Shown here in pieces: positions 4,520-62,659 of a stretch of DNA of 64,000 bases. The translations under genes and the position numbers were made by a program. The stretch is from Hydractinia symbiolongicarpus (taxonomy: Eukaryota > Cnidaria > Hydrozoa > Anthoathecata > Hydractiniidae): contig NC_079884.1 of assembly GCF_029227915.1 (NCBI RefSeq), positions 7,316,001-7,380,000 on the forward strand. The letters run 5' to 3'. The notes beneath the pieces are model-generated. The model was not told the origin of the DNA, searched no databases, and worked only from the letters and a program-made list of their open reading frames with translations. Position 1 is the stretch's first letter; each line of letters starts with the position of its first letter.

Positions 4520-5965
4520 CTATTGACTACAACATACACTTTCGACAGACTGAACTTTTGTTAAGAGATCCATTGCTTTTTTTAATTTAGAATCCACTTT
4601 AACTTTGACAAATTCCTGAATGGTTTCTTCATAAAAATGATATGATAAGCATTCAAGCAAGGGACTTCGAATTGCTTCATAACTGCTTATTGATCGGTTG
4701 AGAAGAGAGGATATGTACTCCAAATGTCCATAATTTATCTTTTTAACTACATCAACATGCCATGAATCAATCCACCCATCAAGACGCTCCTGAGCTGCCA
4801 TGATTTGATGCTTCACAAGTTCTAGCTGAGACATGTAAATAACCAGTTCAGACCCTGGAAAATTACCACAAGTAATGTCATAACGAGTGTTTATATTATT
4901 GAATGGGATTAGACTTAAATACCCGATTTGTTTAGACACATTTTCGTGCAGTTGTTTTGTAAAACGCTTTTCTTTAAAAATCTGCAAACACAATGCAAGA
5001 CAGGGAAGAGCAATAGGAAGAATTTCACATAAGGTAGCAAAATGATCATAACGGGACCAGCCAGTGACTGCAAGGCCTTTAATTTTGTTTTTAATGTTCG
5101 AGTCTAAGCTTTCAATTAAAGATAACCATGATAGATGGTTGTTAACATGATGTTGTATGGGAACCATATCACACACAGGCCCAGATGAGCCTTTGAATGA
5201 GCTAGCAATCCATATTTCATCAAAAACATCACCGTAGCGACCCCACATGTTTGATGGAAATTGGTTGGTCAAGTCATCAACATAAGACCAAACCATTGGA
5301 ATAACGGTAGGTCCTAACATTTCTAAGTCTGGTACAGAAAATTCGCGAAACATATCATCCCAAATAATTATTTTTATTGCAGGGTACTTTGCCTCAATCA
5401 CTTTTATTAATGGCATCATGTGGCTCAAAAACAGTTTTGCATTTGATTGTTGAGTTTCCAAGCATTCTTTACAGAGCCCCAAACAGAATACTTCATCCCC
5501 ACCTATATGTAAATATTCCAAGTCATTGTGTTCCTGCATGTATTGATCAACAATTTTTTCAATTAATGGCAAAGAATCTTTATGTGTGGGACAAAGTGAC
5601 ATTGGATTCATAGTTGCCTCACGTAAATATCGAAATTCCTGGTGCTTCAAGATAAATTCCACATGGCCAAACGATTGCAATAAAGGTACATACACCATCC
5701 CTTCTGCTTTGGTCACTTCCTGTAGTGATCTCAAATCATCAGTTGTATAAGCGTAAGGCTTAGAAAGCATCGATAAGGACTCACGGAATGGAAACATATC
5801 TTCATATTCTATTAGTATGCCAGTAGCACCCCATTGTCGAAATAGCGGTATCAATTTCAGCAGGTAACTTATTTTTGGTGGTGCACCTTTTAAATCTATG
5901 TGCACAATCCGATGTGTTACTGCTGCTGTTTCTTCAATTTTTTCATCTATATTTTCTGCATCCAT
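4520..5965 (-). CDS. HEXD: Hexosaminidase D (GH20 beta-N-acetylhexosaminidase)
   Basis: A complete 481-residue single-exon reading frame. The family removes terminal beta-linked GalNAc or GlcNAc and in mammals is mainly nucleo-cytoplasmic. No signal peptide is visible here, which agrees. The N-terminal HIDLKGAPPK block (about residues 22-31), LIEYEDMFPF (51-60), QSFGHVEFILKH (97-108) and HIGGDEV (153-159) are the conserved blocks of the TIM barrel. D157-E158 are the expected catalytic pair, in which the acid/base Glu and the preceding Asp hold the substrate N-acetyl group. Later blocks such as VWSY, ASSFKG and VTGWSRYDH also fit hexosaminidase D. Length is close to the human protein (about 480-490). 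The ATG is the first of the frame and is preceded closely by a TATCAATAT-rich leader. No intron is visible in the coding part. Confidence 0.93.
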   Translation of the reverse strand: MDAENIDEKIEETAAVTHRIVHIDLKGAPPKISYLLKLIPLFRQWGATGILIEYEDMFPFRESLSMLSKPYAYTTDDLRSLQEVTKAEGMVYVPLLQSFGHVEFILKHQEFRYLREATMNPMSLCPTHKDSLPLIEKIVDQYMQEHNDLEYLHIGGDEVFCLGLCKECLETQQSNAKLFLSHMMPLIKVIEAKYPAIKIIIWDDMFREFSVPDLEMLGPTVIPMVWSYVDDLTNQFPSNMWGRYGDVFDEIWIASSFKGSSGPVCDMVPIQHHVNNHLSWLSLIESLDSNIKNKIKGLAVTGWSRYDHFATLCEILPIALPCLALCLQIFKEKRFTKQLHENVSKQIGYLSLIPFNNINTRYDITCGNFPGSELVIYMSQLELVKHQIMAAQERLDGWIDSWHVDVVKKINYGHLEYISSLLNRSISSYEAIRSPLLECLSYHFYEETIQEFVKVKVDSKLKKAMDLLTKVQSVESVCCSQ

Positions 5966-6271
5966 CCTATCAATATCATAAGGTTAAATTTGTAAGACTG
6001 TAATCAGGATTTTTGTGCCATCATTCAAGGGAATATTTCCTTGTCACTTAAGAGTTAAATTTTAAAGTTCCAACTGCTACATTTCTCACTTATTTGATAA
6101 TTCAGGGCTGTCAGAGTAAAAAAAACATGCAATTTTGAGGTGCAAAGTAAAGCAAACAATAATTTGTTCTTTTTAAAAACAAGAAATTAACGATTGGCTT
6201 TGTTAAACTGCCAATTCATAAGTTATAGGTTTTATTTAGTGTTCATGGAGTCTCTTTGATGGTGTGTATAC

Positions 6272-11479: not shown

Positions 11480-12497
11480 AGTGGATTCTCCCACGGGTAT
11501 TGTATGCAGATGATTTGGTTCTCATAGCAGAGTCGATGGAAGAATTAGTTGAAAAGTTTGAGAAGTGGAAGAAAGGACTAGAAGAGAAAGGGCTGAAGGT
11601 AAACACAGCAAAGTCTAAAGTCATGATAAGTAGCATTGCAGCCAAGTGTGACCTTGTAGTTGGAAAGTGGCCTTGTGGAGTTTGCAGGAAAGGGGTTGGT
11701 AGTAACTCAATTTTTTGTCAGACTTGCAAGCATTGGGTACATAAGAAGTGCGCTAGTATTAGTGGAAGGTTAACAGCTGACATACAGTTTGTATGCAAGC
11801 GTTGCAAAGGTGAGATTATAGAGAATGAAGTATTTCCAGCTTTAATGATGTACAACAGTGGCTCGTTAGAGATAGTTAAGAACTTCTGTTACTTAGGTGA
11901 TATGTTGGGCAGTGAAGGGGGTGTTGGAAGAAGTGTTACTTGCAGGATAGGTTCTGCTTGGAAAAAGTTTAGAGAGTTACTTCCTTTATTGACTAGCAGA
12001 GTCCTGTCAATTGAGGTAAAAGGTAGGTTGTATGAGGCCTGTGTAAGAAGTGTTATGTTGTACGGTAGTGAGACATGGGCAGTGAAGCAGGAAGATCTTA
12101 CCGTTTAGAAAGGAACGATATGAGAATGGTTAGGTGGATGTGTAATGCCAGTCTGAGAGACAGAAAGAGTTCAGATGAGCTAAGAAGCAGGCTAAGTCTC
12201 CGTAGAATTAAAGATGTTATCCAGATAAGAAGATTGAATTGGCTGGGGCACTTGGAAAGAATGGAGGAGGATAATTGGGTAAGAAAGTGTAGAGACTTGA
12301 TAGTTCCTGGGGTAAAGCCCAGAGGCAGACCGAGAAAGACTTGCAGGAGGTTATAAGGACAGACTTGATAGAGAGGAAGTAAAGTTTAGATCTAACACAG
12401 TCTAGATCAGATTGGAAGAGGGTCATTAATATACCCCGTCCAACCCATGCTAGCATGGAAAACGGACGTTAAGCCGAGAATGATGATGATGATGATG
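11480..12497 (+). mobile_element. 5'-truncated non-LTR retrotransposon with RT domain and a zinc-finger insertion
   Basis: The reading frame opens within the reverse transcriptase catalytic motif (YADDLVLIAES, from about 11500) and runs through the thumb-like region to GRPRKT near 12345. Between YADD and the FCYLGDMLG block sits a Cys/His cluster (C-x2-C ... C-x2-C ... H-x2-C ... C-x2-C, 11674-11810) that resembles a PHD-type finger. The element is dead. A one-base deletion near 12100 shifts the frame, a second shift lies near 12345, and everything upstream of YADD (endonuclease, RT fingers and palm) is missing. The 3' untranslated part ends in a TGA/ATG triplet tail at 12480-12497. The same 3' part also occurs at 11224-11341. 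The clade is not certain (L2/CR1-like tail habit). Confidence 0.88.
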
Positions 12498-18620: not shown

Positions 18621-20452
18621 TAAATAATTATTGATGTGCTTGACAAATCATAACATGCAGATTGCACAAGCTGCAAGGTGTCAACCAGCACTGCATTTTC
18701 TAAAAATAAAAATGCGCTGAATCTCCTGGTTAAAAGTGCCATTATTAAACCTATAATAGTTATCGTTCCTAGGCACTTTCTAATATGATCGCATGCAAAA
18801 AAAATCGAGAAAGCCTTTTTCAAACTCAGTTTTGTCAACAACCGGTCCCTAGATTCTCAGACTCAGGTCTGGTGTGGTCATGAGTAAAGTGACTGGCGTG
18901 TTATAGGTCACACTCCTAAAATTGTGATGGCGTGCAACAAACATCGCACGTCTGAGTTCTATTTAGGAGTGTGATGAAAAATAGTAGGCGTACGATTCCT
19001 AAAGACTTTTTAGGAGACAGTCCTCGAAATAATTTTTGGAGAGTCGTGAGTCAAAATGTCCGCAATATTTCCAGTTTGGTCGGTTATGTCCCTAGCTCGT
19101 TTCGAACTTTCGTCGCACAAAACGTCCTGGTCCTTATAATCCATGAGGAAGCCTATTTATAGCCAACCTGGCCATCCTAACTAATTCAACGACTCCTGAC
19201 TTAGTTAAAAGAACTACGTAGACATAAATCTCCATTGCTGAGACCCTTCTTCGTTGGTAACCAGGTCTTACACAAGAAATCCAGCCACGTGGCTCTTAAC
19301 TAATGTGGAGGTGAACGCCGACGAAAAACAGATGAAGCAAGTCTTCAAAACTGAACTTACAAGCGTAAAAGACATTATATCATGGATTTAATTGTAGATA
19401 AAACCTGTTGCGGGTGCTTTCTGTCACGGGGGCTCGATAATGGGGATTTCACTGGTCAGGTAAATCATTTATTTAGTAAGTTACTAATGGTAAAATTTTT
19501 ATGGCAAAATGGGGAGTTCGCTTCGACAAGCCAACATTCATTCATTTGTGTAACATGCATACCTGAAAATGGTACAAATTCAAATTCTTATTAACTGCAA
19601 ATAATTTTCATTTTAACATCAAAAGTCAAACTGTTGATTTTCTATTTTGTGCATCGCTGAGAATGGCTGCAATGTTTTCTGCTCTGATATTTTATGCTGC
19701 GTCAAGTATTGAGGGATTCCTAAAAAAAGATCTTGTACCCTTTCATTTAGATAGAAGTTTTTATTAGAAGTTAGTATGATTAGAAGCTTTCCCAGAAAAT
19801 TTTATTCCCAATAATCAGCAAAATATTAAAGTGTCATTTTGGCAAAAAAATTATGTTTATCAATTTACTTTCATATTATCTATGCATTAATATGTTTGAA
19901 TGCAACTTCCATAACAGGTATAAAATTACTGATGACAGAAAATGTCAACTTTGCTATTACTTAAATATGACATTATAATTTATGCAGCATTGTTAAATCT
20001 GAAATTGTGAATGTCTTGACAACAAAAAAAGCTTTTAAAAAGTTTAAAAAGACTTCTTAACCAACTTTTAAACCTCTATATATATATAAGTTCAAAATCT
20101 TTTATACCTAGGGTTTTCTTAACTTTTGTATTTTGTTTTTATTTTTTTGGTGAACAACTGGAAATATGTGTTATTACACTCATACCACTTTCTACAACAG
20201 CTATGTTTGTGTTGTTATAGCTTTTAGGTTGAATCTAATTAGTTTTAAAAACTCTGTTTCTTTGTTCTAATAATAATAAATATTAACTACCACTATCAAT
20301 TTGCCATATTCCCAATAGTGAATCGAAATAGAAATATAAAACGCATTCCCCCGGACAATATTGTATATGCAAATACTGCTGTCCATTTATCTTTCATCGT
20401 ATTTGTGAAGATCTTTCATTGACCGAATTTTGTTATTTTTGTTTCAGTAATA
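18621..20452. other. Upstream region of the first sulfotransferase
   Basis: No coding exon recognised. The coding exon downstream is preceded directly by a splice acceptor (TTTTTGTTTCAG ending at 20447), so a non-coding first exon and an intron should lie in this stretch. A TATATATATATA tract at about 20079-20090 is a possible promoter element. Confidence 0.4.
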
Positions 20453-21331
20453 ATGATTTCAGTAAAACCTTGCACTGACGAATTTCCAAAGGTAAAAGAC
20501 CAACAAATTGTAACAGATGGAGTTAACTGTATGATAGCCGGTAATTATTTGTCTCCCATCTATTTGGAAGAAATACGTAATATGGAGTTAAAAGAAACAG
20601 ACATCTTGTTGGCCACTTATACAAGGTCAGGAACAACAATAACAAGGAGATTGTTGTTGGTAATGATGTATGGACCTGATCGAGTGCTTAACACTGAGAA
20701 AAATGAAATGGACGAAATATCTCCTTTTCTAGAATTTCAAGACTTTCAAACAGGATATTTTGGCTACCATTGTGCGAAGAAATTGCAAGATGCTCCACAG
20801 CGTTTATTAAAAACGCATTTACCAATTTGGCTAGCACCAAAATCTGAAAAGGCAAAAAAGGTTATTGTTGCACGAGATGTGAAAGATACCTTGGTATCTA
20901 CGTATTACTTCTATAAGAATGATAGCAACAACCCAAAAGAAATATATAATTCCCTCGAGTTTGAAACATTTTACAAAATGTTTATGTCAGGTGCAATTCT
21001 TTACGGAGATTGGTATCAATGGTATAGAGGGTGGCTAGATGCCTCTGATGAAAATACTCTTTTGTTACATTACGAGGATTTCATCAGAAATTTTGAGGAA
21101 ACAGTTACAAAACTTGCAAAATTTGTTGGTGTAGAAATGACATCTGAATTGATGTCTAAATTAAAAGAAGCAGTTGATTTTAAACGCATGAAAAAAGAAT
21201 TGAGTGTTCCATCAATGAAAGATTTTGTGCGCAAAGGAGTCATTGGTGACCATCAGAATTACTTAGATGAAGAACAAATCAAGTTTTTGAATGAAAAATG
21301 CCAAGAAATTGTTCCTGAACTTTTAAAATGA
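20453..21331 (+). CDS. Cytosolic sulfotransferase (SULT-like), tandem copy 1
   Basis: A complete 292-residue protein in one coding exon. The family moves a sulfonate group from PAPS to hydroxyl or amine groups of small molecules in the cytosol. Visible motifs are the 5'-phosphosulfate loop TYTRSGTT (residues 55-62; the usual Lys is Arg and the usual Pro is Thr), catalytic His122 in KTHLP, the PAPS 3'-phosphate residues in RDVKDTLVS (Arg141, Ser149), YEDFIRNFEETV (207-218) and RKGVIGDHQN (260-269, the RKGxxGD signature). Length matches SULT1/2-type enzymes (285-300). No signal peptide. The ATG sits six bases after a strong acceptor, so the 5' leader is spliced. A poly(A) signal AATAAA lies at 21442-21447. 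The second copy starts 3.0 kb downstream with the same length and layout, indicating tandem duplication. The acceptor substrate cannot be told. Confidence 0.93.
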   Translation: MISVKPCTDEFPKVKDQQIVTDGVNCMIAGNYLSPIYLEEIRNMELKETDILLATYTRSGTTITRRLLLVMMYGPDRVLNTEKNEMDEISPFLEFQDFQTGYFGYHCAKKLQDAPQRLLKTHLPIWLAPKSEKAKKVIVARDVKDTLVSTYYFYKNDSNNPKEIYNSLEFETFYKMFMSGAILYGDWYQWYRGWLDASDENTLLLHYEDFIRNFEETVTKLAKFVGVEMTSELMSKLKEAVDFKRMKKELSVPSMKDFVRKGVIGDHQNYLDEEQIKFLNEKCQEIVPELLK

Positions 21332-23145: not shown

Positions 23146-24290
23146 TTCAGGTAGTTTACCTATTTGTTACTGTTTGGCCAGAATTTGCAACTCTCTGCAC
23201 AAAATGCCTAAATTGTGAAACTCACAAGCGTAGCAAATACAAAGGTATATTTATGTTAATTTCATCAGGCCACACCAATACATCACATAAATTAATTACC
23301 TTTCTCTTTACCCGGGTTATTGCACTTTAGATTCTCAGGAAATAGGACATGGAAAGCACAAACATGACTAATAGCTGTGACATTTCGAATTTTTTTATTA
23401 TTTCTAAATAAGTATATAAATATGCTTTTTTCATATTATCTCCAACATCAAATAATTTTAGCACCCAACATTATTCAACAATCTAGCGTTAATTCAACTT
23501 GTGTTTAAATTGTATTCTCGTTTAATTTTTACAATTTTTTTTCTTTATAAGGTCCCCCATTATCAAAGCAACAACCATCAGTATTCCTTAAATTATTGAG
23601 GGAGGAAGTTTAAATAAAACAGAAAACGAACAAAAGAAAACAAAAACTCCAAGAAACAATTAAAATACAGTGGCCAAGATTAGACGCATGTTCCAAACAT
23701 CTAAAAGCTAAGACACTCAAATGCTAACATTTAATTTCTAAACTAATGGAATATTAAACTACTTGGTTCATTGAACTTTTAAGAAGTTGATATTGATTTG
23801 AATTATGAAACGTTCTACATCAAGGCGGTTTAAGTGCTTACTATATTTAGAATACCACATGTGAAAGCCTTTCCTAGCTTTTGTTGGGTCCGGGTCTTAG
23901 GTCCTCCTGTGGGGTCTTAGGTCCTTATTTAGGGTGTTAAGGTCACAGATTTCCGACTACCTTGTTGATCACGATTTTCTAGCCAGTTAAAATTGTAAAC
24001 AAAAGTTTATATATTGTGTTATGTGACCTTATAAGAAAATTTTAAAAACTATAATCTACATTGCTTGCCATAGACAGACGAAATTGGCGAATTAGTATAT
24101 AAGACCAGTTATGTAACGTATAAAAATCCACTTGTAGTCAGTAATAAAAATCGATTTTTATATTCTTAGCATGTCAAAAATGCTGCAAATATTTTACGAT
24201 GTATTCGACTACTCTTTTTCATTATTGTGTTTTTCTGCGAACAGCCAATGTTAATGAAATTTGGAACCTCTTGTTTTGATTTCAGTTATA
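23146..24290. other. Upstream region of the second sulfotransferase
   Basis: No coding exon recognised. A short direct repeat with GGGTCTTAGGTCC occurs near 23890-23925. As with copy 1, a splice acceptor (TTTTGATTTCAG, ending 24285) precedes the ATG, so a leader exon is expected upstream. Confidence 0.4.
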
Positions 24291-25169
24291 ATGATTTCAG
24301 TAGAGCCTTGCACTGACGAGTTTCCAAAGGTGAAAGACCAACAAGTTGTAACAGATGGAGTTAACTGTATGACAGTTGGTAATTATTTGTCTCCCACCTA
24401 TTTAGAACGAATACGTAATATGGAATTGAAGGAAACAGACATCCTATTGGCCACATTTCCTAGATCAGGGACAACAATAACACGGATATTGTTATTGACA
24501 ATGATGTATGGACCTGATCAAGTGCTTAAGAGTGATAATAGAAAAATGAACGAAATGTCTCCTTTTATAGAACTGAACGAAGATGAGACAGGATACTATG
24601 GCTACGATATTGCAATGGCTTTTCAGGATGTTCCTCAACGCCTATTAAAAACGCATTTACCAATTTGGCTGGCACCTAAGGCAGTCAAGGCAAAAAAGAT
24701 TATTGTTGCACGAGACGTAAAAGATACCTTGATATCTTACTATCACTTTTATAAGAATGATAGCTCTAATCCAAAGGAAATATACAACACACTTGAGTTT
24801 GAAACATTTTACAAAATGTTTGTATCGGGTTCTATCCTTTGGGGAGATTGGTATCAATGGTATAGAGGTTGGTTAGATGCTTCTGATGAGAATACTCTTT
24901 TGTTACATTACGAGGATTTAATTAGAAATTTTGAGGTGACAGTTACAAAACTCGCAAAATTTGTTGATGTAGAAATGACGTCTGAATTGATGTCTACATT
25001 AAAAGAAGCAGCTGATTTTAAACGCATGAAAAAATATTTGATTAGTTTACATGTTAAGGGTTTTGTTCGTAAAGGAGTCATTGGTGACCATCAGAATTAC
25101 TTGGACAACGAAAAAATCAAGTTTTTGAATGAAAGATGCCAAGAAATTGTTCCTGAACTTTTAAAATGA
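24291..25169 (+). CDS. Cytosolic sulfotransferase (SULT-like), tandem copy 2
   Basis: Again 292 residues, roughly 80 percent identical to copy 1 by eye. The ATG at 24291 is chosen because it aligns with the start of copy 1 and lies six bases after the acceptor. Codons further upstream in the frame would include the intron end. The PAPS loop reads TFPRSGTT (closer to the consensus than copy 1, with Pro kept and Lys again Arg), then KTHLP with the catalytic His, RDVKDTLIS, YEDLIRNFEVTV and RKGVIGDHQN. The region after GYYGYDIAMAFQD and the loop before RKG (KKYLISLHVKGF against KKELSVPSMKDF) differ most. These are areas near the substrate and dimer surfaces in the family, so substrate preference may differ. 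A poly(A) signal is at 25412-25417. Confidence 0.93.
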   Translation: MISVEPCTDEFPKVKDQQVVTDGVNCMTVGNYLSPTYLERIRNMELKETDILLATFPRSGTTITRILLLTMMYGPDQVLKSDNRKMNEMSPFIELNEDETGYYGYDIAMAFQDVPQRLLKTHLPIWLAPKAVKAKKIIVARDVKDTLISYYHFYKNDSSNPKEIYNTLEFETFYKMFVSGSILWGDWYQWYRGWLDASDENTLLLHYEDLIRNFEVTVTKLAKFVDVEMTSELMSTLKEAADFKRMKKYLISLHVKGFVRKGVIGDHQNYLDNEKIKFLNERCQEIVPELLK

Positions 25170-30480: not shown

Positions 30481-32310
30481 AAGAATGTTTGAGCTGATGA
30501 AATGTTTTCCAATGCAAAAAATATCAAATGGACAGAATGTAACCTCCGTAGCAACAAAACAACGAATCCTTCTAGAGGTTCTTCAAGAAGGATTCCTTGC
30601 TTGGTTGTTACCTTGCTACTTTGCAGCGTTGCTACGTTGTGACATAACTAGACGCTCCCCAGCGTCTGCTAAATATTTAGTTACCCAGTTTAATTGCTAT
30701 AAAAAAATAAGGCTCCTAGAGAGTTTTTTAAATAAAACACGGCAATATGCTTGAATTTTTAAAACGAAACAGTGCGATGTGTGCGCTTTGTATGTTTTTT
30801 TTAATAATCCTTATCAAAATAATAGAATACTGTATAGGATATGCAGACAGAAACACAAGCTTGTTAATGTGAAGACTAACTTTTGTCTTATGGTAAAGCC
30901 ACTCAGGACATCAAAAATTATATGCCATAAAATTTCAAAAAAGAAACTTCACTTGACTTATATATTAGTTAACTCTTTTTTTCATAACAGGTTAAAGTAT
31001 CATTTGTCCATCCGTCACGAAAAAAGGGTTTCGTAATAGCCTCATTAATGTAGGTTTTAATTTTTGTGATTTCGTACATCTCCAATTTTATCTAATTTAT
31101 TATCAAAATAATTGACACATTATTAGAATCTCGAACGTCTTTCACACTAAAGTAGAACATAATGTTATACAGCCCGTTATCTTGTCGGTGTTAGTTCTAA
31201 TAATTATGTGTAACCTAGTACATATGATGTCATCCACATAATTGTAGCTTTTGTAAGAAGAATCAAATTGAAAATCAGAAAGAATGAACGAATTCGCTAT
31301 ATTTCAACAACGCAAAATCAATGAATCTAATTAATACCCATCTAATCTCACTACACTCGTCGCTAGTCATGTAAAAAATCAGGGAATTTCTCTGTCGCTA
31401 CCGCAGGTATTATAATAAATTTAAAGGCGGCTGCTAGGTGGAATCTATTTTTTAATTGGTTGGTCTTATAATAAAAGTTTCTACCTCCTAAGACTTACTG
31501 TATAAAAAATTACGAACTTAAAGAATTTTTTTAATAGATTATTGAGAGCAGCCATTGTGCAACATCTGTTTTGTATATAACGCACGCAATGCGAGTCATG
31601 CTTTCTGTCAATTTCCTTAACCTGAAATGATTCCAAATAGCTTAAATTATGTATGAAGACCGTTAGTATAGGCGAAAGAAAATTTAAAATCTAGTTTACT
31701 GATCATTTATGTCATAAGAAAACCCTTTTTTTTATTCCTCTATAATCACCATGTAAAGTAGAATTTTTACCGTAAACATAACGCTGCGCATTGCAACACT
31801 TCTTTATGATTTCAATGGTTAAATTATTTTTTGCACTTTCAAACAGTTGTTTTTTGCGAAAACAATTTTTTCGTATCAAACAAATAGTGCACATAATTTC
31901 CATACGCGCAGCTATTATTTTTATCCAATTAAGTCAACGTAATCACATTGGCACTAAAAAACGCGATTATAAGAATTTCAAGCTTCACACAATATTGATC
32001 AAACCATTTTCTACTTCCAATAAGGTAATGATATATGATATTAAACATAGGTTCCCACCAATTCAATAATTTATCAGGGTAAAAGCATACTGATAGCATT
32101 ATTGATATGGTTGGTTCTCCCATCGGAAAAAGATGGGAACAGTCAGGTTTAAGGTGTGTTTTTCAAAATTTATTTCACCAATAATTCAATACGCAACACA
32201 ATTTTATTTTAGTAAAGGAAAAATTTAAAAAACATAAAAAAAACATAACATAATAAAATAAATAAGATAATTAGTGAATATATGTCTGACAATAGAATTG
32301 TGTAGTACAA
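30481..32310. other. No gene recognised
   Basis: AT-rich, short frames only, no domain seen. Confidence 0.45.
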
Positions 32311-32370
32311 TAACTAGTCAAGTGTATTAATAACTAGTCAAGTGTATTAATAACTAGTCAAGTGTATTTA
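32311..32370. repeat. Three tandem copies of a 20-bp unit
   Basis: TAACTAGTCAAGTGTATTAA repeated three times head to tail, just past the stop codon of the secreted-protein gene A and therefore probably inside its 3' untranslated region. A minus-strand AATAAA at about 32364-32369 overlaps the last unit. Confidence 0.9.
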
Positions 32371-32375
32371 TTCAT

Positions 32376-34037
32376 TTACATTGTATAAGGCGTAATCAAC
32401 TTTTTTATGTCCCTTAGCTCAATTTTAACTGTCATTCTTCTCATAGTTACGTAGGCTTCATAAGTTAGTCCAAACTTTTGAACGTCTTTTGATGTTGGTT
32501 TGCTACCAGAGCAATCCTTTTTCATAGGAAACGTATGAAATGAGCCGCTTTTAATTTGAAACGCTGGTTTTGATAGTCCAGCCTTTTTCTTCAACGTCTA
32601 AAGTATTAAATAATAGCAATTAAGCCAAAATAAACAATCAGCAACAACAACAACAATAGCAATAACAACAACAAAAACAAACAATAACATTACCTTAATG
32701 GCACCAGAAAGGATGAGGTGAAGCTTAGAAAAACATGGAAAAATTGATTCTAATTTTGTTATCAGGGATGGCCGTTTAAACGAAAACTTTTCATCGCTAG
32801 TTACTGAAACTAAGCCAGGCATTAACATCTTTACAATAGCTAGAAATTGGCGCATCATGTCTAAATTCTAAAGATAAGAAGAAAAAACACGCAAGGAAAA
32901 TATAATAAACAATAAAACAAGGTTAAAGAAGTCGATGGAGAAAAATAACTCACAGTATCTGCATCCAAAGGCACATTAAATATGCTGCATAACTTTACTT
33001 GATTGCAACCGCGACCACTGATCACATTCCCCTAAGTACAAGAAAACAACATTTTGAAATACAACACAAACAAAAATAAAAACAATAGCCAAACACAATC
33101 TGTTGCATTAGAAAACACAATCAAACGCAAACAAGATCATAAAAACTTACATATTGGCAAGTTATATTTTTGAGAATTGAACTGCATCGATTTAATTGAG
33201 TTGTTACAGCATGTTTGATGTTTTTTATTGTCATCAACTCGTAAGGCTTCGTGTTTTTTCCCTCTCCTCTACTTGAAGTTAGAATCATCAAGAGAACTAG
33301 AAGAAGCAGAAATGTGAGAATATCAAAACACTCTTTATTTGCTATTAATGTTTGCATTACATTATTTATATATAAGAGTTTAGGATTAGTTTACAGTAGG
33401 CAAGGTCACTTCTAGTCATAAGAGTTTCAGTACTAAAAGTTTTTTAATAGTTCCTTAGTGAATTTGGATGAATTAAATCACATTGAGATCATTTTTGTAT
33501 ATGTTAAGAACCCAGTAAACACAAGGCGTTTTGAAAACGTCTTTAAGACGCCCTTTAAAGATGTTGTTGAGACGTTATCTTAAGTCAAAAGACGTCTGGA
33601 CGAGCTAATGACGAGAAAAGCTGTCCTTTAAGCGTCTTTGTGTTTACTGGGAATCTTGCTTGGTCATTGTACAATAATATTATGACATTATTTATCACAT
33701 ACAATACTTACAACGTTTGACAACTGTTACTAAAATGGAAATAACTTGCACAGAGACAGAAACAATACAAAGAATTACGAAGTACGGGTAGTTGCTGTAA
33801 TTTCACTGTGTGTTACTTACGCAAAATACTCACAGTCAAAATATACACGTTTAGAATAAAAGCAAAGAAAGAGAGTGAATTTAAACCAATAGGTCAAAAA
33901 TCATGAATTCGATAAGTTGAGTCTGACCATTAATTTTACATATTTGCTTTTTCAAAGCTCATTATTGCAAAATTTAATTTTTTTATAAAAGAGAGTAAGA
34001 AAAATATATAATACGAACCAATGAAGTATGTAAACAT
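32376..34037 (-). CDS. Gene A: secreted six-cysteine, four-helix-cytokine-like protein
   Basis: Five spliced exons: 34037-34019, 33296-33151, 33031-32954, 32867-32694 and 32597-32376, phases 1-0-0-0, 212 residues. Exon 1 (19 coding bases) plus exon 2 give the signal peptide MFTYFIVLLMILTSS. Its donor (GTTCGT) is weak, but a TATA box 77 bases upstream and the phase support it. Cysteines are at 44, 53, 64, 70, 126 and 168, almost the same spacing as genes B and C. The first helix segment ends in C-x8-C (LNRCSSILKNITC), with an N-glycosylation site NIT. Exon 3 starts GNVISGRGC and has C-x5-C. Exon 4 holds two helix-like segments split by a KRPS turn, with FPCF. Exon 5 holds TFPMKKDC and a basic C-terminal helix. 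A is the most diverged of the three paralogs. Function is inferred: a secreted signalling protein like long-chain class I cytokines. It could be another helical secreted family. Confidence 0.82.
33511..33651. mobile_element. Short MITE inside intron 1 of gene A
   Basis: The 141-bp element begins CCCAGTAAACACAAGGCG and ends with the inverse of CCCAGTAAACACAAAGACG, giving terminal inverted repeats of about 14-18 bp. GACGTC/AAGACG words repeat inside. Its presence in the long first intron may help explain why that intron (722 bp) is longer than in genes B and C. Confidence 0.82.
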
Positions 34038-34113: not shown

Positions 34114-34121
34114 CTTTTATA
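34114..34121 (-). promoter_or_regulatory. TATA box of gene A
   Basis: TATAAAAG on the minus strand, 77 bases upstream of the ATG of exon 1. In the two paralogs a TATAAATA box lies 84-91 bases upstream of the ATG, so the position is conserved even though the sequence differs slightly. It supports the short first exon over an ATG further downstream. Confidence 0.6.
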
Positions 34122-38858: not shown

Positions 38859-39167
38859 TTATTTCTGCAACCTTTTACCATAGTTCAAGATTCTATTCCA
38901 TCTTAACATCGGAGAAGCAGTTTCATCTAAATGATGTACATCTGATAGACTTTCTTGACTTTTTTCGACGGGAACATTACCATTAAATCTACTATTAATT
39001 TTCATTTTAATAACATTCAGCAATTTCCTGGCGTATTTTAAGAGATTCTTTTCTGTTTCTGGGATATCTCCTTGCAGAGTTTCATCATTAGTGTAGCGTT
39101 GCGTATACACAGGCTGTGATGCTTGCACAATCGTTAAAAACAACACGATCAACACAAAACGAGTCAT
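38859..39167 (-). CDS. Small secreted protein, possible peptide precursor
   Basis: 102 residues starting with a clear signal peptide (MTRFVLIVLFLTIVQA, cleavage near SQP). I do not recognise the family. The mature part is hydrophilic, lacks cysteines, and contains a helix-like KNLLKYARKLLNVIKMKI segment. Near the C terminus is the motif NYGKR followed by LQK and the stop. Gly followed by a dibasic pair is the usual signal for peptide cleavage and C-terminal amidation, so a peptide ending in LNY-amide could be made. Only one copy of the motif is present, so this is weak. The gene is complete in one exon and lies head to head with the secreted protein at 40353, 1.2 kb away. Confidence 0.6.
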   Translation of the reverse strand: MTRFVLIVLFLTIVQASQPVYTQRYTNDETLQGDIPETEKNLLKYARKLLNVIKMKINSRFNGNVPVEKSQESLSDVHHLDETASPMLRWNRILNYGKRLQK

Positions 39168-40352
39168 TGTTGCAGTTAATTGGATTTGATCTGAAAGTTG
39201 TTTAAATAAGAACTAAACTGTGACCCCTGCTGTTTTATCAACATGCACCCGTGGTGACCGCATCATCAGCATTCTGGAGAAATTAATAAAAATAGGAACT
39301 GCGTAGATTTCCAGCTGCTGTTCAGAGCATAGCAACAAAGCTAATGATTATACTTTCGAAAGAATGCCCGCCTATCATGTCCTGTATTTCATCATTAAGA
39401 TTTTCGTTTTATAAAATTTTAATTTTTTATTTTATTTTTAATACAAGGTCAAACTAAATGGGGATGCTAACACGACAAATACGATCACATTAAAAACGCA
39501 GCTAACTTTCCATAATAAATGAGATGTTTGCCCTTTTCCTGACAAAATTTACATTTCTTTATTTGAGAGGTTTACGTAAAAATTTCAACATAAGTTACAA
39601 TCCTGGAATTAATATGTAGGAAAATGGCAATATTTAGCCATGTATGAAATCGCCAGACAATGCTTTGCTGGCTGCAGATGTTTAGGCCTGGTAATCACAT
39701 CACAGTTTCTGCGGTCTTAGCCTGACAAAAAAATTCATGCAAAAGCCAGAGAAGGTATGGAAAGTAGCCGTGAAAACACAGCAAATAGTACATTTAAGAA
39801 AAATTATTTTGGATAGTTTGGAGGGCGTGTGACTTCTTAAAATTTGTTGTTGTTTTTGCTATATTTTTGTTGTGCTTATACCTATTGTAATGAAAAGAGA
39901 GAGAGAAACAACATGTTTTTATGAAGTTCTTTTATTCAAAGTAAAATACACTTCTTTCATTACGGGAAATTTACAGCAGACGGCGCAGTCTGATGTGTAA
40001 ATAATACATTTCAAAGATTTACTTTCGGAAGAAAGCTGTAAGTAGAGCAAAAACAACAACAAAAACAATTTGAAGAAACTTAAAATTTTATTTTACTTTA
40101 GAAAGGAAAAAGATCATGATTTAATTAAATAAAACCACTATTGCATGAAACGGAAAATAGAGTATTCACAATCGAATCATTATCCATACGCCCCATGCAG
40201 CGAAATTTGAGTTCATACAAGAGAGTTTTAGTTCTTAATTTATTTAGATTTAAGGAACGTGTGGCGCAACAAGTGAATTAAACGAAATCTTCTTCATATT
40301 TTAGGCTTTAGTGAAAAGGTGATTGAAGAAGGAGGACGTTCTGCAAGTCAAA
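39168..40352. other. Shared upstream region of two divergent secreted-protein genes
   Basis: No coding sequence recognised. The plus-strand gene to the right is preceded by an acceptor (CTTCATATTTTAG, ending about 40303), so a leader exon probably lies here. A GA-rich stretch near 39895-39906 is simple sequence. Confidence 0.4.
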
Positions 40353-40916
40353 ATGGCATTGAAGATAACATTGTTCCTTGTCATCGTTGTGACAGTAGCT
40401 CATACCTTTTCATGGTCGATCAGAAATTATGACCGGTCTGATCAGCAGTTGAATAATATTGACGACTATTACAAGAGCAATTCTTTAAGAAAAAATGTCA
40501 TCACAAACTCATTGAGCCATATCAAAAATCTATTTCGAAAACACCACCATAAAGTGCCGCCAAGATCTAACGCATATGACGCTGCTATGGGTGCTACACA
40601 AGCAGATGTGAAGCAGTTTTATGGGGATAGCAACTATCAGCCTTCTCTAACAGAAAATGCAAATCGTGGCATTGGATATACATCAAGCAGATCGATGGAT
40701 TATAACACCAGATTCAACAGTGACAGAAGTACTTTCAAGAAACGAGCGCTAACCACGAATGGTATTTTTAATTACAAAGCTGCGTCAAAATTCAATCACA
40801 GGAATGACAACATAAACAAAAAGATGTTCCAGCAGCTACAAAATGATGAAAATCTGCTGCTTCATGAAGCTGGAAGAAATTATGATTATAATGACATTAA
40901 TATGCTACCTGTGTAA
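40353..40916 (+). CDS. Secreted protein of unknown family
   Basis: 187 residues from ATG 40353. This ATG gives a clean signal peptide (MALKITLFLVIVVTVAHTFS). An in-frame upstream extension has no ATG. The mature protein is polar and low in hydrophobic residues, rich in Asn, Tyr, Ser and Arg (NYDRSDQQLNNIDDYY, RSMDYNTRFNSDRS, NKKMFQQLQNDENLL). It has no cysteines and contains basic sites such as FKKR that could be cleaved. I recognise no domain. It could be a matrix or capsule protein or a precursor. The coding region is a single exon after a likely 5' leader intron. Confidence 0.6.
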   Translation: MALKITLFLVIVVTVAHTFSWSIRNYDRSDQQLNNIDDYYKSNSLRKNVITNSLSHIKNLFRKHHHKVPPRSNAYDAAMGATQADVKQFYGDSNYQPSLTENANRGIGYTSSRSMDYNTRFNSDRSTFKKRALTTNGIFNYKAASKFNHRNDNINKKMFQQLQNDENLLLHEAGRNYDYNDINMLPV

Positions 40917-57590: not shown

Positions 57591-58595
57591 TTACAATATG
57601 TTTGTCATTTGCTTTCTCAGTTGCAAATAACCATACATTTTCTGCAGCAATACTTCAAAGTTCTTGAAGACCATATATATTTGATCATCATATGACAGTT
57701 TTCTCTCACATGGTGACTTTAATGGAAAGGTATACAACTGTATTTTGTCAGCTTTTGCCAAACCTTGGATACCTTTGTTTCCAGATTTCCCAAAATGCTA
57801 AATCATGGAAAATATATTAAATTTATTGAAACCCAGAAATTTATTAATTTTAATAAAACAGAGAAGACTTATGTTCCAACAACTTCTCACCTCAATGGCT
57901 CTATTCAGGTGTTTTATTGTTGTGTGAAAACATGGTGATAAGGCATTAACATCGATCTTAACAAAGCGTTTATTATTTTTTTCTTGCTTCCCGATGGTGG
58001 ATGTGGTAATAATGAAGCTTTGTAATATGGCTGTAAACTGATGCAATGATGTCGCAGTCTAGAGAAATATAAACGGAACGGACAAAGTGACATGTGTGAG
58101 AGAATGAATCTTAAGTACTTCTACATCTAAATTTGCCCACGCTTATTTAATAATTACTGGAAGAAAAACATTTAAAAAAACTTACGTCAATGCTTACAGA
58201 TGCATCATTAATGGGACATCTACTTTTATATTCGCATTCTCTTTTCGATATAATATTACCCTAAAATCAAAAACGTACATAGTGTTGGTGAAAAAATTTA
58301 ATAACAACAATAATTCTTTATTTTCATCTTACCATTTCGCAACGAATTGCTTTCACAAGTTCAGTGCAAGATTGTATGTTTTTTTGAATATTTCCGTACA
58401 ATTCATCAGAAGAAAGCTTTTTGTGCATAATTGCTTTCCTTCCCACAAACACTGGTTGTATCATCACGACGTAGGTAGTTAATCCTAAAATATAAGACAA
58501 GCTTTGGTCAAAACTGAATTGAAGCAGAAAAATGTAAATTTTTGATAAATCAATTAGGCATTACCTAAAATAACAGTAACAATGATTTTGTCCAT
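57591..58595 (-). CDS. Gene B: secreted six-cysteine, four-helix-cytokine-like protein
   Basis: Five exons: 58595-58565 (31 coding bases), 58484-58333, 58260-58186, 58058-57891 and 57797-57591, all GT-AG, phases 1-0-0-0, 210 residues. The signal peptide is MDKIIVTVILGLTTYVVMIQ. Cysteines are at 50, 59, 70, 76, 129 and 172. Predicted helix-like segments are DELYGNIQKNIQSCTELVKA (helix A, exon 2), LHQFTAILQSFIITTSTI (B) and FVKIDVNALSPCFHTTIKHL (C), both in exon 4, and DDQIYMVFKNFEVLLQKMYG (D, exon 5). The C3-C4 pair is ECEYKSRC (C-x5-C). Closest to gene C, with identical words DELYGNIQK, ISKR, SPCFH and LLQKMYG or FLQKMYG. It is transcribed away from C. The layout matches EPO, growth hormone, IL-6 and G-CSF genes. 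A cytokine-like ligand role is inferred, and no receptor gene is in the window. Confidence 0.9.
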
Positions 58596-58678
58596 TTTTT
58601 AACTCTCTGTCAATTAGAATCTTGTCTTCTGCCAGCAACTGGTAAGACGTGTGGTATAAACTTCACATTGAAGGGGTG

Positions 58679-58686
58679 TATTTATA
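58679..58686 (-). promoter_or_regulatory. TATA box of gene B
   Basis: CACTATAAATA on the minus strand, 84 bases upstream of the ATG. The same 11-base string occurs upstream of gene C at nearly the same distance. Confidence 0.72.
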
Positions 58687-61538
58687 GTGTCACATTTTGA
58701 GTTCATATAAACAAAATATGGTGTATTCTGAGAACTTTTGTGTTGTAGGTAGATGTGATACATTTTTATAATTTAGTTTCCCCTGTATAACCCTGCTGAG
58801 TGGGATTGTTTTCATTTTTTTTCATTTTCCTCTTTTTTGGTGATAAAAGCCATTGCTTAGAAATCAATTCAGTTTAATCCCTCTACGAAAAATCTTGCAC
58901 ACTTTTCACAGAAATTCCTTCTTGTATTTCCTGGGAAAATGCCCTGCCTCATTACATATATTTTGTTAATTGCTTTACTTAGTTTACAGAAAGCGGAAGA
59001 GAAATTACAAATTTTGAATTTACACTATAATGCACTTAATTAGTCAAGATTTAATGTTCTGCAACTTTCGTGATTTTACCTTCAAAAACATAAGTTCTGG
59101 CCGAGACATTGTTGTCCAGAACTCCACGAAATAACATGTAGTTCGTAAAAACTTAAAAATAAGTTAAGTTCGGTACATCTCAACAACAACAGAATGATGA
59201 TTTAAATAATCTTCGTAATAAAAAACTAAATTATGAGCGTTGGTATTTTGAAATATAATATAATATTAAGGTACAAACAACTGATATAAAAATGTTAGCA
59301 ATAATTCTAACGCATTTCAATTTTTCATGCAATGGTAAAAAACTCGAAAAAAACAAAATCAACGGCCGCAATGTGTGTCCAATTACTAGGATAAGCCTGC
59401 AATAACAAAATTAGTTTCCAAAATAAAACGCTTTGATTGTGTGACACATTCATGTCATATTGCATTCGTTTTCTTTAATTAGCTGTAAGTCAATTTACAA
59501 ACAATTGCGTTTATTGAAAAGTATAACCTACAGTAATACATTTTCTGATTTATTTTGTTTAAAATGTTGACATGCAACAATTTCTTCGAAAACAAAGAAA
59601 AGCTGATGAATTTCATGGGAAAATAAATTTATCCCACTCGAAAATAATTAAGGTCTGCAAATTCAAACTTTCGTCACAGTCCAAAAACAAAGAACTTAAT
59701 AATGTTGCTTAATACATGAGCAAGGGTTTTTTTCTACAGCATTTTAGGTTACTGCATTCGTAGGGAGGGGAAGAGTTATGTTGAATTTTCATTTAGAATT
59801 ATCCCATTCCCTGTTATTGTTTAATTTATCGTTCGCGTGTTACGTGTTTGATTTTCTACTGTCGTGTGTCATGTATGGTTTTGCAATTGTAATTAGTTGT
59901 ACTTTAAAGAAAATTAAAAATTGATTATTTCTATTATTTTAATAAAGTTATTGGAAGAATTGGATCGAGTTTTCATAATTCCAAAATATGAGTCAACAAT
60001 GCTACTCCATTTTATTGTTTTATTATCAAGTTAAACAAACGTTTGTGGTGCAACAGTCAGTGTTTTTGCGCATAAATGGCTCCTCAAATTAAGAGAAAAT
60101 ACTCCGCTCTCCACAAAAATTTCATCATAATAATTTACCCTAAATTGCCTCGATTTTTAAGAATATCTGGTGCATTAAAGAAACCCACAGTCACTGGCAC
60201 CGATAGCTTAATATTATATACCTTGTGGTGCATTTGTTTTATAACTTTAGAGATGATAAGCAGATATTAAAAGGTCTCTTGTAATGTTCGTCTTTATTTA
60301 GTGGGGTGTGTGAAATCTACCTTAGCGGAATATTTCTAACTGAATTTTATACTTAGCATCAGCGCAGCTTAAGAATTCTTAATTTGCTGCAAGCATTAAT
60401 ACGACAACTTTGACATGTTCTGCTTGTGAGAAAGGACTTTAAATTATGCAGTCTTGTTCCAATATTTTTTTGCTACGATTGCAGTTTTTAATTTTTTAAA
60501 AATTGCTTTATTATCTGCATTAGTTTCTTAATTTTTTTCTTATTTTTATTTAATGGAATAAAAAGTAAGAGATAAGATTTTAATTTATTTTTTGGATGTC
60601 TTTTCTTAGAATATTAAGGTAATATTCGGAAAAATGTATGCATACTGAATATCATACATATCTTTACATAATTGAATTTATATTGATTCTCATTGCGCTG
60701 TGTTCCGTTGCTTTTATTTTGCATATTGCCACTTTAAATCACGCGAATGTGAGTTAACTTCCACATAGTAGTAGCTACATCAGCAAACATCTTACATTTT
60801 ACTTCCCATGTCATACATAAGAATTGCAGTTGAAATCTTGCAGAGTTTTATTCAACTAATTTGGTTTTCATCATTTCATATTCTTCTTTGTTTTCCTGAC
60901 GAAATCTAGTGAAAATATATTTTTTTTAATTTTCACATAAGTTTATCTTGTTTGTTTAGTCTAATGTGGATATATCAACGTAACAAATACTACTATTTCT
61001 AATACAAGTTTAATTTTTGAGCTTCTGTGGCATATTGAAGAATTCTAGATGATAATATCCAAAAGAAAACCGAGGGCATGCATTACTTCTATCAATATAA
61101 GAAGTAGGGAGATCCTGAATCAGAATAAATGTAATAAAAATTGACTAAATACTGTTTGTCTTTCTTCCCTTCTTTGAACTTCCAATGTCACTTTTACTTT
61201 CTGTAAGGTAAAAAATAGAAACATTATAGGAAAATATAATTATTGGAGTTTTCTATCAACAATAACAACAACTAATTAACTCTTAAATACAGATTTCCTC
61301 TAAACACTACAAAGAAATCATCTCCACAGCGTATAAAGAGATTATTTCAAAAGGATTAGAAAGAATAGATACCTAAACAAACAAAAAACGTTTTTACAGA
61401 TAAGAAGAAAAGAAAAGTAAAAACGATGCATGACCATACCATAAAAATATTTTCTTTTTACTTATTGCAACCATCTAGTATGTCAGCATTCTTAGAAACA
61501 CTTCCAAAATAAATTCGGAGGAACTGAAACGGTAGCAC
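58687..61538. other. Divergent intergenic region between genes B and C
   Basis: No coding exon seen. This 2.9-kb region separates the two head-to-head TATA boxes and probably holds their shared or separate control elements. No repeat family recognised. Confidence 0.5.
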
Positions 61539-61546
61539 TATAAATA
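61539..61546 (+). promoter_or_regulatory. TATA box of gene C
   Basis: CACTATAAATA, 91 bases upstream of the ATG, the same string as in front of gene B. An ATG at 61560 opens a 15-codon frame ending at 61607. If transcription starts about 30 bases after the TATA box, this ATG would lie at or before the start site, so it may not be translated. Confidence 0.72.
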
Positions 61547-61636
61547 ATCAACTACCATCATGTTTCTTCATCACACATCTCAGCAAGCAGGAAAAGGAAG
61601 ACGATAATTTTTTATATAAGCAAATCTACGTTAAAA

Positions 61637-62659
61637 ATGCACAGAATAATCATTATTGTTACAGGTACCAACCATTAGCAATTTTTTTATATAAAATTAC
61701 GTTTTACAGCAACAACAATCATATTTTCATTTATTTTTAGCGGTAATTTATGGTGTATTTTTGGTAGAACCAGCAGCAGTGCTGAATAGACTAACTAATG
61801 ATGAATTGTATGGAAATATTCAGAAAAGCGTGCAATCTTGCTATAAATTGGTGAAAGAATTTCGTTGTCGCATGGTAAACAAATACGCTTGGATAATTCT
61901 TGTTACTAATAATTTGTACATCTCTACCATATTCTGGTTTTTTTTCACTTTCAGGGTGATATTATATCAAAGAGAGGATGCAAGTATGACATCAAATGTC
62001 CAATAACAGATTTTTCAATGGACACCATGGACGTAAGACAAGTTACACCCTTCTGTGATATAGTTGTTTGTAAAAGCTCCAGAGTTTCAGATTTCTGAAA
62101 ACATCAAAGATGGAGAAAAATGTAAAATCAAAGCACAAAGAAGAATAGGAAAACGTCAGATTTTTTTCATAATTGTCATTATTTCTTTTTTTAATTTTGT
62201 TCTCTTAGGGCAAGGAAGGACTAAATAAATTTTCTGCTAAATTACAAAGCTTTATTGAAACCATCTCTACAATGGAAAAGAATAAAATAAACAAGAAACG
62301 TTTTGTTGAGATCAACATGGATCTATTGTCTCCGTGTTTCCATGAGACAATGTCAAATTTGTACTCGGCCATGACGGTGAGAAATAGTTTTAAAATATCT
62401 TCTTCGGCTACATCGGTTATAACAATCACAAGTCTCTAGTACACTTAACAAAACTTTGTATTTTTAGCATCTTGAAATATCTGAAGTAAGAAATGTTGAG
62501 GGATTGACCAAAATTACAAAAGATATTTTACCTGATTTCCTTGGAAGTTCAGCATGTGGAAAAATGTCGGATGATGAGCAAGAATTTGCTGTTTTGAAGA
62601 GTTTCGAGATATTTCTACAAAAGATGTATGGCAAATTGCAATTGATGAAGATGTATTAA
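61637..62659 (+). CDS. Gene C: secreted six-cysteine, four-helix-cytokine-like protein
   Basis: Five exons: 61637-61664 (28 coding bases), 61741-61874, 61955-62032, 62209-62376 and 62468-62659, all GT-AG, phases 1-0-0-0, 199 residues. The signal peptide is MHRIIIIVTAVIYGVFLV. Cysteines are at 43, 52, 63, 69, 123 and 166, with gaps of 8, 10, 5, 53 and 42 residues (gene B 8, 10, 5, 52, 42; gene A 8, 10, 5, 55, 41). Helix-like segments are DELYGNIQKSVQSCYKLVKE, LNKFSAKLQSFIETISTM, VEINMDLLSPCFHETMSNL and a C-terminal FAVLKSFEIFLQKMYGKLQL. Exon 4 has the same length as in gene B (168 bases). The end LKSFEIFLQ resembles the helix D end of human IL-6 (LRSFKEFLQ, from memory). Short introns (76-176 bases) keep the gene within 1.0 kb. 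The cytokine-like role is inferred. Confidence 0.9.

Follow-up and report, generated by a model that had tools for sequence, protein, structure and literature searches.

Spliced genes for six-cysteine proteins in Hydractinia with an exon layout resembling that of class I cytokine genes

Results

Three five-exon genes in the window

We analyzed a 64,000-nt stretch of the Hydractinia symbiolongicarpus genome (the window, C10:7316001-7380000, where C10 is contig NC_079884.1) that carried three genes, A, B, and C, for putative secreted proteins with six cysteines. The coordinates of these genes are positions of the window, and the loci found elsewhere are given as genome positions. Gene A spanned positions 34037-32376 (minus strand), gene B spanned 58595-57591 (minus strand), and gene C spanned 61637-62659 (plus strand). 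When re-derived from the DNA, each gene had five exons, and the proteins were 212, 210, and 199 amino acids (aa) long, respectively. A preliminary description of this DNA had proposed that the genes become visible only after splicing and that the cysteines are separated by 8, 10, 5, 52-55, and 41-42 residues. Both proposals held: all 12 introns ran from GT to AG, the spliced frames stayed open until the final stop, and the gaps between the six cysteines were 8, 10, 5, 55, and 41 in A, 8, 10, 5, 52, and 42 in B, and 8, 10, 5, 53, and 42 in C. The parts of the genes are listed below, with signal peptides and helices (A to D) as predicted.

Gene A exon 1: 34019..34037, minus strand, 19 nt, phase 1; start of the putative signal peptide
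Gene A exon 2: 33151..33296, minus strand, 146 nt; remaining signal peptide and predicted helix A
Gene A exon 3: 32954..33031, minus strand, 78 nt; predicted AB loop with C-x5-C
Gene A exon 4: 32694..32867, minus strand, 174 nt; predicted helices B and C
Gene A exon 5: 32376..32597, minus strand, 222 nt including the stop; predicted CD loop and helix D
Gene A TATA box: 34116..34121, minus strand, 84 nt upstream of the ATG
Gene B exon 1: 58565..58595, minus strand, 31 nt, phase 1
Gene B exon 2: 58333..58484, minus strand, 152 nt; putative signal peptide and predicted helix A
Gene B exon 3: 58186..58260, minus strand, 75 nt; predicted AB loop
Gene B exon 4: 57891..58058, minus strand, 168 nt; predicted helices B and C
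Gene B exon 5: 57591..57797, minus strand, 207 nt including the stop; predicted CD loop and helix D
Gene B TATA box: 58681..58686, minus strand, 91 nt upstream of the ATG
Gene C exon 1: 61637..61664, plus strand, 28 nt, phase 1
Gene C exon 2: 61741..61874, plus strand, 134 nt; putative signal peptide and predicted helix A
Gene C exon 3: 61955..62032, plus strand, 78 nt; predicted AB loop
Gene C exon 4: 62209..62376, plus strand, 168 nt; predicted helices B and C
Gene C exon 5: 62468..62659, plus strand, 192 nt including the stop; predicted CD loop and helix D
Gene C TATA box: 61539..61544, plus strand, 98 nt upstream of the ATG

When the window was searched with protein B (tblastn), exons of C were matched at E values of 6e-19 and 5e-14. 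Because of this match, the same exon pattern at further loci, and the intron-less contigs described below, we consider the resemblance among A, B, and C to be above chance. A few bases 3' of the gene A stop there were three direct copies of a sequence of about 20 bp, ataactagtcaagtgtatta (window positions 32310-32369).

Support for splicing

A profile of A, B, and C was searched against 5.8 billion proteins with a method that detects only relatives sharing short exact words. Two proteins were retrieved: P0001 (212 aa, E 8e-77, encoded on a 927-nt contig) and P0002 (208 aa, E 4e-58, encoded on a 1012-nt contig). The database source tag of both contigs, "lgn," presumably denotes Logan, an assembly of public reads. 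P0001 and spliced A shared 93% identity, which extended to the tiny 19-nt exon 1 (the N-termini are MYTNFIVLL in P0001 and MFTYFIVLL in spliced A), and P0002 was 85% identical to gene E and 88% identical to gene F, two further family members described below. Identities below 100% pointed to a related species or strain as the contigs' source. Both contigs crossed all four junctions without introns, and therefore we infer that they originated from spliced RNA. Thus, the intron-less contigs support the splicing predicted for A and for genes of the E/F type. Further searches of the same proteins added no relative; B and C themselves were matched by no contig, and their proposed splicing rests on the family pattern.

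The family across the genome

The 480.9-Mb genome was searched with proteins C, P0001, and I as queries. Nine loci were found, which is a lower bound, and all were on C10: seven were intact (A, B, C, E, F, G, and I), one was broken (D), and one lacked exon 1 (H). Loci A to F were located in 7.348-7.396 Mb, G and H in 9.565-9.570 Mb, and I in 11.650-11.654 Mb; two further matches, on C3 and C8, were weak (E>6). As read by eye, locus D (C10:7382.8-7383.7 kb) was a broken sister of gene B that had lost the start codon and the exon 1 donor, and its exon 5 was frameshifted relative to that of B. Locus H (about 9568.9-9569.9 kb on C10) was a near-identical repeat of G exons 2-5, and no repeat of G exon 1 or its TATA box was present in the stretch read upstream of H. 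Intron 4 of gene I contained a minisatellite with units of about 20 bp that resembled AAATCGGGGCAATATAGATTA.

D and H were excluded from the alignment, the tree, and the estimates of the nonsynonymous to synonymous substitution ratio (dN/dS). The six cysteines were invariant in all nine aligned rows; E and I had an extra cysteine close to the N-terminus (at residues 15 and 9, respectively). The tree separated A, P0001, G, and I from B, C, E, F, and P0002, with long branches that leave the details unsure. For E versus F, dN was 0.067 and dS was 0.269 (dN/dS 0.25), and the ratio for B versus C was 0.36; both ratios indicate purifying selection. The A/G and A/I pairs were not used because their dS values (2.8 and 2.0) were near saturation.

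TATA boxes were found at -78 to -98 in six of the seven intact genes, and gene I had none within 150 nt upstream. A hydrophobic core was present in the first 30 residues of all seven proteins (maximum Kyte-Doolittle [KD] value over 8 residues, 2.2-3.7), and it exceeded every later stretch in six of them; G had a slightly higher internal stretch. These signal-like N-termini are consistent with the signal peptides that the preliminary description assigned to A, B, and C, from which secretion would follow. Taken from residue 23, six of the seven mature proteins were basic (net charge, +11 to +19; pI 9.5-9.9), and mature C was nearly neutral (net charge, +2; pI 8.2).

The family had been put forward as undescribed, and the Pfam results agreed with this: all nine rows fell below the curated cut-offs, including those of toxin and antimicrobial families. 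The best match, Filo_VP35 in E (E 0.0035; 16.9 bits versus a cut-off of 27), was taken as chance. Insect odorant-binding proteins, which are also helical and have six cysteines, were rejected; their spacing is C2-x3-C3 and C5-x8-C6, and all seven intact genes had C2-x10-C3 and C5-x41..47-C6.

Predicted fold and exon layout

All seven intact genes had five exons and intron phases of 1,0,0,0, with exon sizes of 19-31, 134-164, 75-78, 168-177, and 192-222 nt. The last three exon boundaries fell on identical alignment columns (P0002 residues 61, 87, and 143) in all seven. This layout is a new observation that was absent from the preliminary description.

Two AlphaFold2 models of P0002 were built. 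Alignment A7 was used for folding; the fragment alignments A4-A6 were left out, as they had been partly misplaced by MAFFT. Although their predicted local distance difference test (pLDDT) scores were low (56 and 55), the models concurred on four helical regions, which fits the four helix-like segments proposed earlier. The numbers of residues between helices in the models (AB, 21; BC, 1-5; CD, 29-30) gave a long-short-long order, and long-short-long loops are expected of up-up-down-down bundles. In the mean hydrophobicity profile, helices A, B, and C were amphipathic (p 0.004, 0.046, and 0.002, respectively).

When the exons were placed on these low-confidence models, the signal peptide and almost the whole of helix A appeared to fall in exon 2, the AB loop in exon 3, helix B with most of helix C in exon 4, and the CD loop with helix D in exon 5. 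The last three boundaries were near the predicted end of helix A, start of helix B, and end of helix C, with deviations of -5, -1, and -6 residues; the corresponding deviations for EPO are 0, 0, and +3. The coding sequence (CDS) exons of the human genes are 13/146/87/180/156 nt in EPO, 10/161/120/165/198 nt in GH1, and 19/191/114/147/168 nt in IL6, all with phases 1,0,0,0. These cytokine exon sizes add up to the correct CDS lengths; searches of the open literature gave no text with the numbers. Thus, with the helices as predicted, the family appears to share the five exons, the 1,0,0,0 phases, and the helix-splitting, same-order layout of long-chain class I cytokine genes (EPO, growth hormone [GH]/prolactin, and IL-6/G-CSF).

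The probability that three random cuts all fall within 6 residues of the three helix landmarks was 0.0018. The joint value with assumed phase frequencies was about 5-7e-5, uncorrected for the number of families that could be compared, and it is to be discounted because the comparison was chosen post hoc, the limits of the helices were taken from weak models, and helices may tend to be free of introns.

Sequence and structure comparisons with cytokines

A search of PDB with the nine-row profile found no cytokine. In hhalign comparisons of this profile with nine typed cytokines and three controls, G-CSF was the sole match that beat 30 of 30 shuffles (helix A and the AB loop were in register), and it was discounted since nine cytokines had been tried. 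A likeness of helix D to IL-6 was seen by eye and after the fact and was not used. Searched against PDB as a single sequence, human EPO retrieved thrombopoietin, its paralogue, only at E 0.26, and up to E 10 it retrieved no further cytokine. A lack of sequence similarity is therefore expected whether or not the family is related to cytokines, and it is not decisive. In the Foldseek search with the second model, prolactin chains were at ranks 5, 10, 22, and 31 among the 50 rows listed (E 0.84-3.6).

Pathway partners in the genome

Two genome matches to STAT_alpha were above the curated cut-off. A CRLF3 orthologue was located at C7:7910238-7913371, where the SPRY part was conserved (E 3.7e-16); its 10-kb locus also contained FN3 pieces (E 7e-4 and 0.007) and a coiled-coil piece (E 0.075). 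Passages of published work report that JAK occurs together with STAT in Cnidaria (PMC13203501), that CRLF3 is found in cnidarians, with identification of its native ligand named as a gap (PMC12026705), and that human EPO and EV-3 act on insect CRLF3 (PMC12409108). The sole genome match to the IL6Ra-bind domain (E 1.9, C12) was a 373-bp tandem repeat and no receptor. A long array of this repeat at C12:25.503-25.519 Mb mimics a weak IL6Ra-bind match.

Other features of the window

Sulfotransferase domains (Pfam E 1e-45 and 3e-43) occurred in two open frames, each about 300 aa long and arranged in tandem (20423-21331 and 24258-25169, plus strand), and a 487-aa open frame (4520-5983, minus strand) matched glycosyl hydrolase family 20 above the cut-off (E 3e-7). 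A reverse transcriptase fragment with an adjoining PHD finger (11482-12108, plus strand) is likely the remnant of a LINE-type element. Two open frames near gene A, at 38859-39212 (minus strand) and 40323-40916 (plus strand), had starts that were signal peptide-like by eye and no Pfam match at E 0.01; they are further candidate secreted products.

Discussion

The family proteins may be secreted helical-bundle ligands that act on a surface receptor in the manner of class I cytokines, probably via STAT, and we give this explanation about an even chance. In the mechanism that we infer, the signal peptide would be removed in the secretory pathway, and the mature protein of about 180 residues would fold into helices A-D, joined by a short BC turn and by long AB and CD loops and cross-linked by three disulphides. 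Expression would be driven from the TATA-box promoters, perhaps on demand. The ligand would then bind a surface receptor on neighbouring cells and most likely signal via the animal's JAK-STAT pathway. The likeness to long-chain class I cytokines includes a signal-like N-terminus, a mature protein of about 180 residues, and, in the weak models on the family side, four predicted helices whose AB and CD loops are long. In addition, IL-6 and G-CSF have a C-x5-C motif at the start of the AB loop, and that of the family is in exon 3, after predicted helix A. The earlier proposal of a small secreted ligand is strengthened by the layout but stays a proposal.

Several results weigh against this explanation. 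The P0002 models are weak, and helix D was not amphipathic in the mean profile (p 0.71). The fold prediction and structure search that had been proposed as a check gave four helical regions and no significant structural match: neither model matched PDB at E<=0.001 in Foldseek, and model 2 had no match among viral proteins at the same threshold. The best Foldseek rows of model 1 were the heme enzyme MarE (E 0.014-0.03; probability, 0.94-0.98; template modelling [TM] score, about 0.3; root mean square deviation [rmsd], 19-20 A), which is no cytokine, and the prolactin rows of model 2 had rmsd values of 16-17 A and stood amid unrelated helical proteins. None of the hhalign comparisons with cytokines reached significance (best E 0.13). 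Genes other than those of cytokines can likewise have a phase-1 intron within the signal peptide or introns at the ends of helices. On the receptor side, no IL6Ra-bind domain was above the cut-off in the genome, and the WSXWS motif of the CRLF3 orthologue is degenerate (CGAWS). According to PMC12026705, CRLF3 has no identified signal peptide; therefore, CRLF3 is named as a candidate only, a possible partner of the family and not a relative. Finally, passages of published surveys report no IL-6-type or IL-6-superfamily cytokine in invertebrates and describe IL-6 as vertebrate-only (PMC13203501, PMC8226699).

It is doubtful, in our estimation, that the family consists of true homologues of vertebrate class I cytokines that have kept this layout since before the cnidarian-bilaterian split and that include the invertebrate ligand or ligands of CRLF3 or of an unrecognised cnidarian receptor. 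A rival to the cytokine-like ligand is a secreted helical ligand or binding protein that arose separately in this lineage, such as a carrier or a gamete or self-recognition protein, with a convergent exon layout. We regard such an origin as unlikely. Consistent with it, no known family was matched significantly by sequence or by fold, and just two relatives were retrieved from the 5.8 billion proteins by shared short exact words, but a joint match of phases and helix boundaries to class I cytokine genes is improbable by chance, in a comparison that was chosen post hoc.

The proteins could also serve in defence, as secreted cationic helical bundles with antimicrobial or membrane-active properties, or be nematocyst cargo; the family would have expanded in tandem, and its members would act directly on microbes or prey without a receptor. 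The basic charge of six of the seven mature proteins, the amphipathic helices A, B, and C, and the clustering and divergence of the family, in which one copy is broken and another truncated, all point in this direction; however, nearly neutral C indicates that charge is not a conserved property, and Pfam toxin and antimicrobial families stayed below their cut-offs. We find this rather unlikely, and the purifying selection on E/F fits defence and ligand functions alike and does not decide between them. The short exons, the broken D, and the missing exon 1 of H might raise the suspicion that the gene models were produced by mistaken splicing or represent decayed copies of other sequences. Such an origin is highly improbable, as splice positions and frame were kept at seven loci, the dN/dS of E/F was 0.25, and the two intron-less contigs encode spliced proteins, which contradicts it for the A and E/F types.

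The proposed class I cytokine-like ligands also differ from the systems with which we compared them. The family has no detectable sequence similarity to long-chain class I cytokines and has its own six-cysteine pattern; it is cnidarian, and its fold is a predicted one. Like the putative secreted proteins described here, the IL-10 family and type III interferons are helical, with introns that partition the helices, and the exon-to-helix order of class II cytokines is different. According to passages of PMC2654155, the six IL-10-family genes, IL3, IL21, and IFNL1 each comprise five exons, none of their introns interrupts a codon, and IFNL2/3 have a tiny first exon (exon 1') followed by a phase-1 intron. 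In our family, unlike the unsplit-codon genes, intron 1 was phase 1 in all seven intact members. Drosophila Unpaired, with its receptor Domeless, offers a further likeness, as these invertebrate secreted ligands are described in excerpts of two papers as activating JAK/STAT (PMC6996930, PMC8226699). The comparison with Unpaired was made via Pfam, in which no family of any name matched any of the nine rows above the cut-off. Keyword searches of 5.39 million papers of the open literature (most subscription journals and preprints lie outside it) listed none with a title or abstract start on such cnidarian ligands.

A cnidarian ligand family with the gene plan of class I cytokines would help to fill a gap, as JAK, STAT, and CRLF3 are reported in cnidarians and CRLF3 lacks a known native ligand. 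Such genes would be findable by exon layout, which is of use because sequence search barely joins EPO to thrombopoietin, and there is a precedent in the use of exon structure to support the assignment of interferon-lambda (in a passage of PMC2654155). If the family is truly related to vertebrate cytokines such as EPO, then helical-cytokine signalling would predate Bilateria and be far older than thought. The question is directly testable in Hydractinia, a laboratory cnidarian.

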